Origin: Salinivibrio proteolyticus | Lineage (GTDB): Bacteria; Pseudomonadota; Gammaproteobacteria; Enterobacterales; Vibrionaceae | Direction of reading: 5' to 3' | DNA length: 35,180 nt | NCBI RefSeq assembly: GCF_001996165.1 | Contig: NZ_MUFP01000004.1 | Span: 1 to 35,180, forward strand | In this document: positions 3,020 to 9,968 of the stretch, piece by piece | Numbering within the stretch: position 1 is the first letter of the stretch | Layout: each line of letters starts with the position of its first letter | Made by a program: the position numbers and the translations under genes | The notes under the pieces: model-generated | Told to the model about the DNA's origin: nothing | The model's input: only the letters and a program-made list of their open reading frames with translations | The model's database searches: none

Positions 3020-3500
3020 CAACAATTCTATCGTAACCTCTAAATTTGATATAAAACAAAAAAACAGCGAGTTTTTAATCCTGCGATATTTTCACTTAAT
3101 CTGCTTTTTATTCACCACACCTATAGAGTAAGCATGACTAATTACGCAGTCTATGCACATAGAAAAGTCGTGGTAACTTGATGATTAGCGGCTAAAGCAA
3201 ATTTAAAAAAATAAAAACCCACCTCACCATCATACCAAGAACATTCTGAGTGATATATCTAAGCACATAAACCAAACAGCCATTCACTTTTAACCTGCTC
3301 ATCAATTAAGCGACAGCATACAGTCCCTTTCTTTTGTGAGATATCACTAAGAACTATTTACGGATGCACTTTTACAATAAAGAAAAAGCCACTGACGACG
3401 GCAGAAAAGAACAACGAAAATAACGTGAAACTTAAAAGAGTTACCTCAACACGTGTAGTGCCCTATTTTATTGCACTCAGAAGAGGTATGAGGAGATAGT
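3020..3500 (+). promoter_or_regulatory. AT-rich control region ahead of the ADI transporter gene
   Basis: These 480 bases are AT-rich and hold no convincing gene. They presumably carry the promoter of the transporter, but I could not pick one pair of -35/-10 boxes with confidence. AGCCATTCACTT at 3278-3289 recurs exactly ahead of arcA at 5245-5256. It contains ATTCA, the half-site of the enterobacterial ArgR box (TGAAT-N4-ATTCA). The imperfect palindrome GTGAGATATCAC lies at 3336-3347. A good Shine-Dalgarno (AAGAGG and GAGGAG) sits just before the start at 3501. Confidence 0.5.
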
Positions 3501-4943
3501 ATGAGTACCCAAAGTGTTCCTGAAAAAAAAGGTTGGTTCGCCAACCTCAAATTCCCATCCGCCTATACCATATTGTTCATTCTGATTGCCTTGGTCGCCG
3601 CGCTGAGTTGGATAGTCCCTGCCGGTCAGTACGAACGAGAATATAACGCTGAACTCGGCCGAGATGTGCCTGTATCAGGCACCTACCACCAAGTAGAGAG
3701 TAACCCTCAAGGCGTGGTCGACGTGCTGCTGGCCCCCATTGACGGTTTTTATAACCACGAAACCTATGAAGCGGCCGCCATTGATGTCTCACTCTTCATC
3801 CTCATTATTGGTGGCTTTTTAGGTCTGGTGACCAAAACCGGTGCCATTGATGCAGGGATTGAGCGGGTGACCAAACGCTTAGAAGGACGCGAAGAGTGGA
3901 TGATCCCTATCCTAATGGGCCTCTTTGCCGCGGGCGGTACGATTTACGGGATGGCCGAAGAGTCCTTGCCTTTTTATACCCTACTCGTCCCTGTGATGAT
4001 GGCGGCACGCTTTGACCCTGTGGTTGCAGCGGCTACCGTACTCCTTGGTGCCGGTATTGGTACTTTAGGATCAACCATCAACCCGTTTGCAACTGTCATT
4101 GCCGCGAATGCCGCCGGTATCCCTTTTACCGATGGTATTCTGTTACGCCTCGCTATCCTGGCCATTGGCTGGCTTATCTGTGTTGCCTATGTGATGCGTT
4201 ATGCCCGCAAAGTGCGCGCCGACCAGAGCCAATCCATAGTTTACGATCAGTTTGAGAGCAATAAAAAACACTTCCTTGGCGATCATGACGAAACACAAAC
4301 GCTTGCTTTCACTACCACGCGTAAAGTGATCTTAGGCATTTTTGCTGCCGCGTTTGCCGTGATGATCTATGGCGTATCCTCGCTAGGATGGTGGATGGCC
4401 GAGATCTCTGCCGTTTTCCTCGGTGCTGCGATTATTATTGGTCTGATTGCACGTATGAGTGAAGAAGAGATCACCACCAGCTTTATTGATGGCGCACGAG
4501 ACCTTCTGGGGGTGGCACTTATCATCGGTATTGCCCGCGGTATCGTGGTGATAATGGATAAAGGCATGATCACAGATACCATCTTAAACAGTGCTGAAGG
4601 TATGGTGACTGGGCTATCGTCTTTTGTTTTTATCAACGTTATGTATTGGCTGGAAGTCTTGCTGTCTTTCTTAGTGCCATCGTCATCTGGTTTGGCTGTC
4701 CTAACCATGCCTATCATGGCGCCACTGGCTGACTTTGCAAACGTTGGGCGCGAGTTAGTCGTGACCGCTTATCAATCTGCATCAGGTGTCGTCAACCTCG
4801 TCACCCCAACCTCAGGCGTGGTGATGGGTGGCCTTGCGATCGCTCGCGTTCCCTATGTTAAATGGATCAAATGGGTGGCGCCTTTACTCGGTATTCTTAC
4901 CATCATGATTATGATCATGCTCAGTGTAGGTGTCATGCTATAA
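3501..4943 (+). CDS. arcD: YfcC/ArcD-type transporter, probable arginine:ornithine antiporter
   Basis: A 480-residue polytopic inner-membrane protein of the YfcC family (DcuC-like superfamily). Hydrophobic helices run throughout, starting at about residues 20-42. Conserved family features include GGFLGLVTKTGAIDAGI near 103-119, YGMAEESLPFYTLLVP near 153-168, and a C-terminal helix pair with LVPSSSGLAVLTMPIMAPLAD near 392-412. YfcC-type carriers found next to arginine deiminase genes are generally assigned arginine/ornithine exchange; here that role rests on the neighbourhood of arcA, arcC and an OTCase. It is separated from arcA by 636 bases with a terminator, so it is probably its own transcription unit. 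It is not the amino acid permease (APC) form of ArcD. Confidence 0.8.
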   Translation: MSTQSVPEKKGWFANLKFPSAYTILFILIALVAALSWIVPAGQYEREYNAELGRDVPVSGTYHQVESNPQGVVDVLLAPIDGFYNHETYEAAAIDVSLFILIIGGFLGLVTKTGAIDAGIERVTKRLEGREEWMIPILMGLFAAGGTIYGMAEESLPFYTLLVPVMMAARFDPVVAAATVLLGAGIGTLGSTINPFATVIAANAAGIPFTDGILLRLAILAIGWLICVAYVMRYARKVRADQSQSIVYDQFESNKKHFLGDHDETQTLAFTTTRKVILGIFAAAFAVMIYGVSSLGWWMAEISAVFLGAAIIIGLIARMSEEEITTSFIDGARDLLGVALIIGIARGIVVIMDKGMITDTILNSAEGMVTGLSSFVFINVMYWLEVLLSFLVPSSSGLAVLTMPIMAPLADFANVGRELVVTAYQSASGVVNLVTPTSGVVMGGLAIARVPYVKWIKWVAPLLGILTIMIMIMLSVGVML

Positions 4944-4996: not shown

Positions 4997-5579
4997 ATGT
5001 CTGCCACTCCCTCGCTCAACCATGCTTCACCACGCTGATATATTCCTCTTCTCTTCTCATAACAACATGGCACCGTATTTCTCTTTTTACACCGTTCCGT
5101 TACCGGTATAAAACGGACATCCGCCATCGGACACTAAGTACAGTTATTTTACACTTTTAACAAAAAACGTATTTATATCGACATCAATCACAGTTTTGAG
5201 GAAAAAAACGTCTTTATTTGTTAACAAAGAAAAAATAGAAAGATAGCCATTCACTTATTACGCATACCCTCACCATTCAAAGTAATACTGATTGGCATAA
5301 AAAAGAAAACAGATCCGCATTAACAAAGGGAAATTAAAAAATATTTCGTTAGACACTCACAATTCCTGCTTAATTATTAAAAAACAAAAAAATCTCATGC
5401 CATAAATACCATTAACACAGGGTAAAAAAGGCAAAAGACAATGTTTTAATTCACTGTGATCTAACTTCAAGAATACCCCAGACACCGCGTTAGAATGAAT
5501 CTGTACCCAATAATACATCTGCACTTTTTATTCATCCCTTCCGATAAAAAGCCAAGCAGAGATATACGGAGAAAGAAAG
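4997..5579 (+). promoter_or_regulatory. long AT-rich control region ahead of arcA
   Basis: About 580 bases without a credible gene; the short minus-strand frame at 4933-5127 runs through the transporter's terminator and is not supported. The sequence is rich in A-tracts, especially 5160-5440. ATTCACT occurs twice (5249-5255 and 5449-5455); the first is inside the 12-mer shared with the transporter's upstream region. A TAATAC -10-like hexamer lies at 5511-5516 without a clear -35, which would fit an activator-dependent promoter. The Shine-Dalgarno GGAG lies at 5568-5571. Confidence 0.5.
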
Positions 5580-6800
5580 ATGAACAACTTCTATGTCGGC
5601 TCTGAAATTGGTCAATTACGTACCGTGATGCTGCATCGTCCTGAGCGTGCGCTCACCCACTTAACACCATCAAACTGTCATGACTTACTGTTTGATGATG
5701 TTCTGTCCGTTGAACGTGCAGGTGAAGAGCATGACAAATTTGCTCAAACCCTACGTGATCAAGGCGTTGAAGTCCTCCTGCTCCAAAATCTACTGGCTGA
5801 GACTCTAGATGTACCTGAAGCCAAAGACTGGCTGATGAACCTAAAAATCTCGGATTATACCTTCGGCCCTTCGTTTGCTAATAACATCCGTTGCTATTTG
5901 AATGACCTGCCTCACCATGAACTCGCGTCGATGTTCTTAGGCGGATTGGCCTACTCTGAGCTGCCAATTGCAACAACCTCTATGTTGCAAGCCATGCACG
6001 CACCGTCCGACTTTATTATTGATCCACTCCCCAACCACCTATTCACCCGCGATACCTCCTGCTGGGTTTACGGTGGTGTATCAATTAACCCAATGGCGAA
6101 ACCCGCGCGTAAACGTGAAACCAATCATCTTCGCGCCATTTATAAATGGCACCCTCGCTTTGCGAACGGTGATTTTATTACCTACTTCGGCGGCGAAAAT
6201 ATCGACTATGACAACGCCACCATTGAAGGCGGCGATGTTACCGTCCTCGGCAAGGGCGTGGTGCTTATCGGTATGTCCGAGCGCACAACCCCACAAGGGG
6301 TAGAAAACTTGGCTTCTAGCTTATTTAGACACGGCCAAGCCAAACAAGTGATTGCGATGGAGCTACCGAAACACCGCTCTTGCATGCACCTTGATACCGT
6401 GATGACCCATATGCGTGAAGATACCTTCTCGGTGTATCCAGAAGTGATCCGTAAAGATATCAAATGCTGGAGCCTCACCGGTGATCGCACCGGCAAACTC
6501 AACGTTCGCGAAGAAGATTACTTCCTGACCGCGATTGAAAAAGGACTGGATGTTGGCCCGCTAAACCTGATCACCACAGGGGGTGACAGCTTCGAAGCCG
6601 AACGCGAACAGTGGAATGATGCTAACAACGTACTGACTGTCCGTCCTGGCGTAGTCGTGGGTTATGAACGCAACACCTATACCAATGAAAAGTATGACAA
6701 AGCGGGTATCACTGTGTTGTCTATTCCCGGTGACGAGTTAGGTCGCGGTCGTGGCGGAGCACGCTGCATGAGCTGCCCAATCCATCGTGACGGCATCTAA
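5580..6800 (+). CDS. arcA: arginine deiminase
   Basis: A 406-residue cytoplasmic enzyme that hydrolyses L-arginine to L-citrulline and ammonia, the first step of the ADI pathway. All catalytic residues known from Pseudomonas ADI have counterparts: Asp158 in FTRDTS, Glu216 and Asp219 in IEGGD, His270 and Asp272 in [10 protein letters not shown], and the nucleophile Cys396 in GGARCMSCP near the C-terminus. The length is normal for the family. Fifty-eight bases and a strong hairpin separate it from arcC. The order arcA-arcC-OTCase, with a transporter upstream and argR downstream, supports a catabolic, ATP-yielding role under low oxygen or acid, as known for this pathway. Confidence 0.97.
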
Positions 6801-6858: not shown

Positions 6859-7821
6859 ATGAAAAAACAAACTGTGGTGGTGGCACTCGGAGGCAATGCA
6901 CTCCTTCGCCGGGGTGAGCCTTTAGAAGCTGACATTCAACGCGCCAATATTGCCAAAGCGGCAAAAACCATTGCGGCAATTGGCGAACAATACAACGTGG
7001 TACTCGTGCACGGTAATGGTCCACAGGTTGGCCTACTCGCCTTACAGGGGTTGGAGTATAAATCCGTCACGCCATATCCACTCGACGTTCTCGGTTCAGA
7101 GACCCAAGGCATGATTGGCTATATGTTAATGCAAGAGCTGCATAACCTAGCCCCAGAGCAACACGTTTCTTGCATGCTCACGCAAATGACAGTCGATCCG
7201 AATGATCCCGCGTTTGCCAACCCCACCAAGCCCATTGGTCCCGTTTACGACCAACAAGAAGCCTCAGCGCTGGCTGAAAAATATGGCTGGGATATCAAAC
7301 CAGATGGCCAGTATTATCGTCGTGTTGTACCCAGCCCACAGCCAACCGGCATTGTGGAAGATGACGCCATCGCTAGCCTGATTGCGCAAGGACACCTTGT
7401 GATTTGTACCGGTGGTGGCGGCATTCCTGTGATTCAAGAGGGGAATCAGCTTAAAGGGATTGAGGCTGTGATTGATAAAGACATGTCAGCGGCTTTCCTT
7501 GCTCGTCAAATCAATGCCGATGCCTTGCTGATTTTGACCGATGCCGACGCGGTGTATTTGGACTATGGCCAACCCACCCAACGTGCATTGGCGGATACCA
7601 CCCCTGATGATCTGAGCCAATACACCTTCGACGCAGGCTCCATGGGACCCAAAATTGACGCGTCCTGCGAATTTATCCGTCAAGGCGGAAAACTGGTTGG
7701 CATCGGAGCCTTAGAGGATGGCCTTGCTATTCTTGCCGGCCAAGCCGGAACACGTATTCGTGCCCAAGCAGTAAATAACAACAATATTTCTCACGGCCAA
7801 CCTGCACCAGCGCAAGCCTGA
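6859..7821 (+). CDS. arcC: carbamate kinase
   Basis: A 320-residue amino acid kinase family enzyme that transfers phosphate from carbamoyl phosphate to ADP, giving ATP, CO2 and ammonia; this is the energy-yielding last step of the ADI pathway. The N-terminus [16 protein letters not shown] (about 4-19) and [17 protein letters not shown] (about 46-62) are the family's nucleotide/substrate loops. [12 protein letters not shown] (about 180-191) and [16 protein letters not shown] (about 207-222) are also typical. SMGPKIDAS (about 262-270) matches the conserved GSMGPK motif. It is followed after 26 bases by the OTCase gene, so the two are cotranscribed. Confidence 0.96.
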
Positions 7822-7847: not shown

Positions 7848-8852
7848 ATGGCATTTAATCTACGTAACCGTAATTTCCTAAAGCTGCTGGACTTCACACC
7901 TCGTGAGATCCAACACTTTATCGACATGGCCATTGAACTCAAAAAAGCCAAATACAATGGCTATGAAACCCCACGTTTAAAAGGTAAAAATATCGCGCTG
8001 ATCTTTGAGAAGTCATCGACTCGTACCCGTTGTGCGTTTGAAACCGCCGTGTTCGACCAAGGCGGACAAGTCAGCTATATCGGCCCAACAGGCTCTCAAA
8101 TTGGCCACAAAGAATCCATGAAAGATACGGCCCGCGTGCTTGGTCGCATGTATGACGGCATTGAATACCGTGGCTTTGGGCAAGCGATTGTTGAAGAGCT
8201 GGGCGAATATGCTGGTGTGCCGGTCTGGAACGGGTTAACCACCGAGTTTCACCCCACCCAAATCTTGGCGGATTTGATGACCATGATTGAACATGGTCGT
8301 GGAAAACAGCTTCACGAAATGCGCTTTGCGTACCTCGGTGATGCCCGCAACAATATGGGCAACTCTCTGATGGTCGGTGCGGCTAAAATGGGGATGGATA
8401 TTCGTCTAGTGGCGCCAAAAGCATTCTGGCCTGAAGAAGAGCTGGTCGCACAATGCCGCGCGATCGCTGAACAAACGGGCGCACGCATTACCCTCACCGA
8501 GGACGTGCAGGAAGGTGTCAAAGACTGTGATTTCTTGTACACCGACGTGTGGGTGTCTATGGGTGAATCCAAAGAAGCATGGGATGAGCGTGTCGCATTG
8601 ATGAAGCCTTACCAAGTCAATATGGACGTGGTCAAAGCAACCGGCAATCCACACGTAAAATTCATGCATTGCTTACCCGCTTTCCACAACAACGAAACCA
8701 CCGTGGGTGCGGAAATCGAAGCCAAATATGGCTTAAAAGGCCTTGAAGTGACAGAAGATGTCTTCGAGTCTGACTATTCGATTGTCTTTGATGAAGCAGA
8801 AAATCGCTTGCACACCATCAAAGCGGTTATGGTTGCCACTCTCGGCGACTGA
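7848..8852 (+). CDS. argF: ornithine carbamoyltransferase (catabolic type, arcB-like)
   Basis: A 334-residue enzyme interconverting citrulline plus phosphate with ornithine plus carbamoyl phosphate. It has the carbamoyl phosphate site STRTR (57-61), HPTQ (135-138), the ornithine loop SMGE (237-240) and HCLP with Cys275. In this operon, between arcC and argR, it should run in the catabolic direction, feeding carbamoyl phosphate to carbamate kinase. Sequence alone does not separate ArcB from anabolic ArgF here, so the name follows the usual family symbol. A GAGAGGA ribosome-binding site precedes the ATG. A strong hairpin follows the stop. Confidence 0.95.
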
Positions 8853-9020: not shown

Positions 9021-9509
9021 GTGAGTGATTATGCAATTCCGTCGGTGACAGCCTCCAATCCGGAGGAGAACATCCTCTCAGCCTGCCGGCATTTATTACA
9101 AACCCAAAGCTTTACCACCCAAGACGAAGTGCGTCAGCAGTTGGTCCAACTGGGGTATCTCGACGTCAGCCAATCTACCGTCTCTCGTTTGCTCTCCAAA
9201 CTTGGAGTGGCAAAGATCCCCAATGCACATGGACAGAAGGTGTATTCGATCAGCGGCGATATTGAGCCCGTTTACGCGGTGTCATCGGTAGGATCTCAAA
9301 TTGATGAAATCACGTGCAGTCATGCCATGGTGGTGATCAAAACCCACCCTGGTGGTGCGCAGTTGATCGCGCGCTTAATCGATCTGAATCGTCACCCTGC
9401 GATTTTAGGCACGGTAGGCGGTAACGACACGATTTTCGTTGCACCTCGCCGTGTGAGCGAGTTGAACTTATGCGAAAAAGCAGTACGAGAACGTCTGGCA
9501 AGCGAGTAA
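9021..9509 (+). CDS. argR: ArgR-family arginine repressor linked to ADI genes
   Basis: A 162-residue ArgR/AhrC protein. Residues 14-75 are the winged-helix DNA-binding domain, with the recognition segment VSQSTVSRLLSKLG at about 49-62. Residues 95-160 are the hexamerisation and arginine-binding domain, with HPGGAQLIARLID at 109-121. E. coli ArgR has GDDT at the arginine pocket (Asp128/Asp129); this protein has GNDT (Asn135/Asp136), so the first acidic residue is lost. It starts with GTG at 9021, supported by AAAGGAG six bases upstream. It follows the OTCase gene after a hairpin and probably controls the ADI genes. Vibrios usually also carry an argR next to mdh, so this may be a specialised paralogue. 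Confidence 0.93.
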   Translation: MSDYAIPSVTASNPEENILSACRHLLQTQSFTTQDEVRQQLVQLGYLDVSQSTVSRLLSKLGVAKIPNAHGQKVYSISGDIEPVYAVSSVGSQIDEITCSHAMVVIKTHPGGAQLIARLIDLNRHPAILGTVGGNDTIFVAPRRVSELNLCEKAVRERLASE

Positions 9510-9575: not shown

Positions 9576-9968
9576 ATGACCCAAGTACTGCAAACTGAGC
9601 AGGCACCTGAAGCTATTGGCCCATATTCACAGGGTGTCGATCTCGGCAACATGGTACTGACTTCCGGTCAGATCCCTGTCAATCCAGTGACTGGTCAAAT
9701 TTCACCAGAGATCACTGCTCAAACACGCCAATCACTCGATAACGTTAAAGCCGTTGTTGAAGCGGCGGGCCTCAAAGTGAATGACATTGTTAAACTGACT
9801 GTCTTCGTTAAAAACCTTGAGGACTTTGCGGAAATCAATAAAGTCTACGGCGCTTTTTTTGATGAGCACGGCGTAGAAAACTATCCCGCCCGTTCTTGTG
9901 TGGAAGTCGCTCGCCTTCCTAAAGATGTAGATATTGAAATTGAAGGGATTGCGGTGCGTCACGCGTAA
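9576..9968 (+). CDS. ridA: RidA family enamine/imine deaminase
   Basis: A 130-residue RidA (YjgF/YER057c) protein. Members hydrolyse reactive 2-aminoacrylate and related enamines released by PLP enzymes, and form homotrimers. Visible motifs are AIGPYSQGVDLGN (13-25), TSGQIPVNPVTG (29-40) and the conserved arginine of YPARSCVEVARLP (Arg106), which binds the substrate carboxylate. An upstream ATG at 9534 would extend the frame; the ATG at 9576 is chosen because AAAGGA lies just before it and the family starts here. It follows argR by 66 bases and closes the ADI run. A strong terminator lies downstream. Confidence 0.95.
   Translation: MTQVLQTEQAPEAIGPYSQGVDLGNMVLTSGQIPVNPVTGQISPEITAQTRQSLDNVKAVVEAAGLKVNDIVKLTVFVKNLEDFAEINKVYGAFFDEHGVENYPARSCVEVARLPKDVDIEIEGIAVRHA

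Follow-up and report, generated by a model that had tools for sequence, protein, structure and literature searches.

An arginine deiminase-linked ArgR paralogue with asparagine at a ligand-contacting position in Salinivibrio proteolyticus and related bacteria

What does an ArgR protein respond to when its gene closes an arginine deiminase (ADI) cluster and one of the aspartates that contact arginine is replaced by asparagine? The question is raised by a 35,180-nucleotide stretch of the Salinivibrio proteolyticus genome, referred to here as the window, in which the gene order arcD-arcA-arcC-arcB is followed at the cluster end by an argR gene. Ligand-pocket positions are numbered as in E. coli ArgR, with Asn135 and its neighbors given in the numbering of the window protein. 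The genes and codons concerned are as follows.

3501..4943, + strand: arcD-type antiporter (Pfam DcuC; named arcD from its place and its relatives)
5580..6800, + strand: arcA, arginine deiminase
6859..7821, + strand: arcC, carbamate kinase (Pfam AA_kinase)
7848..8852, + strand: arcB, ornithine carbamoyltransferase (Pfam OTCace)
9021..9509, + strand: ADI-linked argR paralogue, 162 amino acids, GTG start, GNDT instead of GDDT
9423..9425, + strand: AAC codon of Asn135, which aligns with E. coli ArgR Asp128
9426..9431, + strand: codons of Asp136-Thr137, which align with E. coli Asp129-Thr130 and are kept
9576..9968, + strand: ridA-like gene immediately 3' of the ADI-linked argR, the same neighbor as in many relatives

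Outside the window, at G000:C48:19934-21151, lies another gene for arginine deiminase, which shares 71% identity with the window arcA, and an order-wide search likewise gave two arginine deiminase matches in many Vibrionaceae genomes.

The translation of 9021-9509 includes ...ILGTVGGNDTIFVAP..., and its motif reads GGNDT. Both halves of an ArgR protein were recognized by Pfam: the winged-helix DNA-binding domain (PF01316, Arg_repressor; 43.9 bits, cut-off 27) and the oligomerization and ligand domain (PF02863, Arg_repressor_C; 60 bits, cut-off 25). An AlphaFold2 monomer model, for which 29 related proteins were aligned, reached a mean pLDDT of 73.7 and a pTM of 0.44; its C-terminal half fits the E. 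coli ArgR-arginine complex 1xxa_C with a Z of 12.7 and 1.7 Å over 72 residues, and Gly134-Asn135-Asp136 forms a turn between two strands of the model. The first-pass annotation had called the protein an ArgR in which Asn135 takes the place of the first aspartate of GDDT. The two Pfam domains and the superposition on 1xxa_C bear out the former point, and the translation and its alignment to E. coli Asp128 the latter.

When the whole assembly was searched with Pfam, two ArgR genes were found. The other, at G000:C34:85014-85481, adjoins mdh, reads GAVAGDDTIF and is about 76 kb from the ADI-linked argR; it is the mdh-adjacent second argR with intact GDDT for which the first-pass annotation had proposed a search, and it rules out a genome lacking a housekeeping argR. 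GDDT was present in 31 of 31 distinct housekeeping ArgR proteins of the order, and Asp was also found in 24 of 24 further Vibrionaceae housekeeping copies, some of them identical to each other. GND was thus seen in 0 of the 55 housekeeping copies read from this order, which speaks against its being a common feature of ordinary ArgR. The search behind the first of these counts returned 49 matches, of which 30 were read; the remaining 19 comprised 4 ADI-type copies counted elsewhere, the locus L184 and 14 unread matches. Genome G155 holds a further ArgR paralogue among those 14.

The ADI-linked protein shares its two-domain fold with housekeeping ArgR (that of E. coli, that of Vibrio vulnificus, 3v4g, and the copy in the same genome), as well as Gln106, Arg110, Asp113, Asp129 and Thr130. 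It differs from housekeeping ArgR in having Asn for Asp128, in being one residue shorter ahead of the GND turn and in fixed differences within the DNA-binding domain. Identity to the housekeeping copy of the same genome is 36-37%, and only the housekeeping gene lies beside mdh.

Housekeeping and ADI-linked ArgR were separated by a branch with 100/100 support in a careful tree from which columns 127-130 had been left out, and a quick tree agreed. The window protein falls on the ADI side of this branch, apart from the mdh-adjacent argR, and shares both the branch and arc synteny with an ADI-linked clade that takes in Vibrionaceae, Aeromonas (GND) and Enterobacteriaceae (GSS). The topology indicates a single origin of the ADI-linked paralogue. 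Vibrionaceae members of the clade are as little as 43% identical to each other. With the tree rooted on the housekeeping side, position 128 requires at least three changes, namely, Asp to Asn, Asn to Ser and Asn to Asp. The Aeromonas and enterobacterial copies branch from within those of Vibrionaceae, but their branches are long and support is middling, so horizontal transfer of the ADI-linked argR may have taken place.

Close ArcA proteins were found in 70 of 394 genomes of the order. Outside Vibrionaceae, 20 arcA neighborhoods were read, and an ADI-type ArgR is present in 12. GDD occurs in none of these: the motif is GND in eight (with Val next in three Aeromonas-like copies and Met next in five from family f2) and GSS in four. 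At locus L184, the only ArgR is the mdh-adjacent GDD copy, some 4 kb from the arc genes, and no ArgR was seen in the arcA stretches L189-L192, nor in L183, L185 or L194 (cut by contig ends). Among plasmid records matching the ADI-linked ArgR, 239 of 281 are from Escherichia, and 234 Escherichia records match arginine deiminase. The one Escherichia plasmid that was read (L173, conjugative IncF) carries an arc-cluster ArgR lacking both motif aspartates (GSS) and Gln106.

The first-pass annotation had suggested aligning ADI-linked ArgR proteins of Vibrionaceae at this position. A protein search with the ADI-linked ArgR was made in a family draw of 150 Vibrionaceae genomes; the top score class comprised 84 places in 82 genomes, with E values of 4.2e-38 or better, and the lower class began at 1.9e-24 or worse among the matches listed. 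Asn occupies the position in 81 of the 84 places, Asp in two (L084 and L085), and one copy is frameshifted (L010). A named scan gave Asn in 78 of 80 places, with one Ile (L153) and one frameshifted copy; these 80 were retained from 303 confirmed places, and since GNDT was one of the two scan patterns, this count is biased and the family draw is the fairer estimate. Both Asn codons are in use (71 AAT and 66 AAC, with 140 of 164 loci parsed by the codon script). Together with the 81 of 84 places, this excludes chance and sequencing error, and that count likewise rules out an assembly error or a quirk of a single genome. The Asp-to-Asn observation holds and is more general than had been supposed from the window.

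Loss of the Asp128 equivalent from some of 84 ArgR homologues is described in the available part of PMC7248756, so variation at this position was already known; that part of the paper does not tie it to ADI. A class-level search for the GND pattern in 369 genomes gave matches in 64, and among the 30 loci read, an ArgR was found only at the window's own; these matches are probably mostly chance. In Salinivibrio socompensis, the ADI-linked argR is frameshifted (L010 1498-1981, also represented by L087 and L097) with the GND letters persisting in another frame, and the frameshift may be an assembly error of the draft genome. The ADI-type ArgR at 7126-7566 of L153, a Photobacterium metagenome-assembled genome, reads GID; arcB lies in the same stretch, and arcA was not seen there.

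Linkage to arcA was tabulated for 60 loci with flanks of about 7 kb. At the 52 loci with arcA, 51 copies carry Asn and one is frameshifted; at the eight loci without it, six carry Asn and two Asp. Fisher's test of Asn or Asp against arcA presence gave a P value of 0.016, which ignores relatedness and is therefore weak. No arcA was found in any of the eight genomes at an E value of 1e-10 or better, with a query that matched 70 of 394 genomes of the order. The six that keep Asn are Photobacterium-type genomes, and they indicate that Asn does not require ADI. A strict rule confining Asn to ADI loci is ruled out by these six genomes and by the Limosilactobacillus oris and Collinsella proteins described below. 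The two Asp copies, L084 and L085, come from near-identical arcA-less genomes and form a GDD branch inside the ADI clade; it is long and is unresolved in a mixed tree of Gram-positive and gammaproteobacterial proteins. Its placement suggests that Asp was regained, in one event, once the pathway had been lost. In both of these vibrios the GDD paralogue is without arc genes, and the L085 copy (6974-7456) lies beside apparent atp genes.

In E. coli ArgR, arginine is contacted by Gln106, Asp113, Thr124, Ala126, Asp128, Asp129 and Thr130, and Asp128 forms a bidentate salt bridge to the guanidino group or, without ligand, to Arg110, according to the sections of PMC2880562 consulted. These seven contacts plus Arg110 made up eight pocket positions, which were scored in a set of 97 distinct Vibrionaceae proteins of the GND type, without the frameshifted copy or the two that read GDD. 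Gln106, Arg110, Asp113, Asp129 and Thr130 were each present in 97 of 97; position 124 was Thr in 95, and position 128 was Asn in 96 and Ile in one. Position 126 was Gly in 87, Ala in nine and Ser in one, compared with Ala in 31 of 31 housekeeping proteins. Of the 8 pocket positions, 6 are conserved to at least 98%, compared with 39 among all 159 columns (P = 0.003). Fixed differences from housekeeping ArgR (thresholds of 95% and 90%) occupy eleven columns, of which Asn135 is the sole ligand contact; several others, such as Ser50, Thr53 and Lys65, are in the DNA-binding domain. The window protein itself keeps the Gln106, Asp113, Asp129 and Thr130 contacts, has the Asp128 contact replaced and has Gly rather than Ala at position 126; because the latter is also a contact, Asn is not the only difference in the pocket. 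In Vibrionaceae, the side chains that hold the ligand by its amino-acid end are retained. Beyond this family, Gln106 is replaced by Thr in the Aeromonas caviae protein (GND) and by Arg in that of the E. coli IncF plasmid (GSS). Erosion of the pocket is thus seen in Aeromonas and Enterobacteriaceae, whereas Vibrionaceae keep it largely intact, and the further losses have the look of ligand independence in the former two groups.

The same letters recur in Gram-positive bacteria. Among plasmid records, the arcA-adjacent ArgR proteins of staphylococci and Limosilactobacillus reuteri read GND in six of six cases, the staphylococcal set consisting of five genes on four records: two from S. capitis, an ACME-type and a second cluster from S. 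epidermidis, and a broken gene from S. warneri. Ten further ArgR proteins had no arcA in the stretch examined (flanks of 1.5 to 6 kb). Four of them read GDD (Listeria, Pusillibacter, Sedimentibacter and L. fermentum, the last displaced by the alignment and counted as Asp from its own letters), two read GND (L. oris and Collinsella, whose records gave no arcA match), and GTD, GHD, GFD and GAD occurred once each. Gram-positive-type and gammaproteobacterial ArgR lie on opposite sides of a branch with 100/100 support, and position 128 needs at least nine changes on this tree. These data are suggestive of repeated arrival at Asn in arc-linked Gram-positive ArgR, at a position that is loose there and in a small sample from plasmid records. 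The staphylococcal and L. reuteri proteins resemble the window protein in having GNDT in a gene next to arcA; unlike it, they have no Arg110 equivalent, and Gln106 is missing as well from the L. reuteri protein. S. aureus USA300 encodes ArgR1 and ArgR2 ahead of its native and its ACME arc operon and has AhrC as a third homologue (PMC9239276, in part), and the excerpted texts of PMC9239276 and PMC11668279 leave the roles of ArgR2 and AhrC to further study. The GND protein of the L. oris plasmid (L273, 6001-6462) is encoded between serine hydrolase and glutamine amidotransferase genes, and its flanks are annotated like those of the L. reuteri arc plasmid minus arcA and arcD, as if these had been lost.

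The first-pass annotation had read the window protein as a specialized sensor. A separate clade, a near-fixed Asp-to-Asn change in an otherwise largely conserved pocket and the usual adjacency to arc genes, all of them observed directly, give good support to a specialized regulator, and this part of the claim stands; the tie between Asn and the pathway is loosened by the occurrence of Asn in 2 of 10 unlinked Gram-positive-type proteins. Since Asn is fixed in almost all of the relatives of the arc-linked copy that were read, the protein probably senses a signal other than that of the ordinary copy. Asn cannot form a salt bridge to a guanidinium group yet can hydrogen bond to a neutral ureido group, making citrulline the most likely ligand. 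Of citrulline and ornithine, the former would fit the Asp-to-Asn change best, as ornithine has no group that would contact residue 128. We assign a probability of roughly 0.48 to the reading that the ADI-linked ArgR is a dedicated arc regulator or activator with an altered effector pocket, for which citrulline is the likeliest ligand. By this route, arginine would enter the cell and be converted to citrulline by basal ArcA; citrulline-loaded ADI-linked ArgR would then bind upstream of arcD and arcA and raise their transcription in a positive loop, and housekeeping ArgR would continue to sense arginine in parallel. At the level of the pocket, Asn in place of Asp would remove the charge that selects arginine and leave hydrogen bonding suited to the ureido group. 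Because arginine synthesis too passes through citrulline, it would not be a clean catabolic signal.

The same substitution at the same place, D128N, was reportedly made in E. coli ArgR by Niersbach et al. in 1998 (J Mol Biol), designed so that the protein would prefer citrulline, and reportedly had that effect. That variant is said to have been engineered in a repressor of arginine biosynthesis, whereas the Salinivibrio Asn is natural and sits in an arc-linked paralogue. Among the papers searched, none connected D128N to ArgR or described a superrepressor form of the arginine repressor, and three that name Niersbach appear to cite a different publication, from 1995.

The closest system with regulatory data is that of Vibrio fluvialis, in which an arc-adjacent ArgR is needed for full expression of arcD and arcACB and binds both promoters, as described in the parts of PMC11172107 consulted; its accession, AMF95903, is three numbers from that of arcB. 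The V. fluvialis argR is downstream of arcB, as in Salinivibrio, and its protein was judged through V. furnissii, which lies close to V. fluvialis in the arc tree of the same paper. The V. furnissii ADI-type ArgR (L157) reads GND and is 52% identical to the window protein. Its genes are ordered arcD-arcA-arcC-arcB-(pyrB-like)-argR; in Salinivibrio, argR directly follows arcB, whereas V. furnissii has the pyrB-like gene between the two. By analogy with the published activation of arcD and arcACB in V. fluvialis, we infer that the Salinivibrio protein may play the same role. The terms "GDD," "second argR" and "mdh" do not occur in the main text of PMC11172107.

The strongest rival to a citrulline-responsive regulator is a paralogue that, lacking the Arg110-Asp128 salt bridge, binds DNA by default, independently of ligand, either alone or in mixed hexamers with the arginine-sensing housekeeping ArgR. 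We regard this as rather unlikely, although several observations are in keeping with it. The V. fluvialis ArgR shifted arc promoter DNA in a buffer for which the sections of PMC11172107 consulted list neither arginine nor another ligand; these shifts could also have come from an excess of protein or from ligand carried over. In simulations of E. coli ArgR, the Arg110-Asp128 pair drives motion of the apo state (PMC2880562, in part), and the enterobacterial members lack both aspartates and Gln106. A precedent for such a division of labor exists in Lactococcus lactis, where ArgR binds DNA and AhrC senses arginine (PMC6586332, excerpted text). There, ArgR is encoded near arc, with argS between, and is paired with an arginine-sensing paralogue, much like the Salinivibrio pair; compared by description, it represses arc at low arginine, unlike the activator proposed for Salinivibrio. 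What a ligand-free protein would hardly explain is the identity of Gln106, Arg110, Asp113, Asp129 and Thr130 across all 97 Vibrionaceae copies, together with Asn128 in 96 of them.

Next in standing, and less probable still, is that the ligand is arginine itself, bound more weakly, such that the arc genes answer high arginine and housekeeping ArgR answers low arginine. A low-affinity catabolic sensor would be physiologically sensible, the pocket is conserved where it holds the amino-acid end, and expression of the V. fluvialis arc genes rises strongly, 8- to 34-fold, with arginine (PMC11172107, in part). Yet many substitutions could lower affinity, whereas Asn in particular is close to fixed, is encoded by both of its codons and turns up again in the staphylococcal and L. 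reuteri proteins. It is very improbable that the change is neutral, a sign of decay or a mistake of this assembly: the frameshifted S. socompensis copy and the GID of one Photobacterium genome might be taken that way, but Asn holds in 81 of 84 places among copies down to 43% identity, and the pocket is conserved above average.

A broader proposal, which we put forward tentatively, is that ArgR proteins linked to arc serve in nature as citrulline receptors and have arisen more than once, in gammaproteobacteria, staphylococci and lactobacilli, by the same Asp-to-Asn exchange, which would convert an arginine pocket to one for citrulline. Citrulline, as the first product of the ADI pathway, would then switch that pathway on, and position 128 could revert to Asp once the pathway is lost. 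Bacteria with ADI must distinguish arginine to keep from arginine to burn, and the one-residue mark of arc-linked paralogues makes the division between paralogues testable at the bench, with a catabolic copy that may read citrulline. If this is true, many natural sequences would exist for a specificity change that is said to have been engineered once in E. coli. As a practical matter, such genes should not be annotated simply as arginine repressors.

If the ADI-linked ArgR acts on the arc genes as proposed, operators would be expected upstream of arcD and arcA, and two weak sequences upstream of arcA are candidates.

5249..5266, + strand: weak ARG-box-like site, candidate operator (3 mismatches), upstream of arcA
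5292..5309, + strand: weak ARG half-site-like sequence, candidate, upstream of arcA

Both ends of the first site are conserved in six of six aligned Salinivibrio sequences, and the second reads GGCATAAAA in five of six. Across the whole window, the Vibrio ARG consensus gave 18 matches with up to 3 mismatches versus 16.6 expected; with no enrichment, the sites upstream of arcA are to be regarded as candidates only. In 64 arcD-arcA intergenic stretches, which come from related loci and include two pairs representing the same genomes under two locus identifiers, sites matching at 14 or more of 17 positions numbered 188, versus 112 by Markov resampling. Upstream of arcD, TTGATATAAAACAA at about 3046-3059 is nearly conserved in six Salinivibrio sequences and resembles an FNR/ANR box. 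A TGTGAGATATCACT element, closer to arcD than TTGATATAAAACAA, is likewise nearly conserved in the six sequences.
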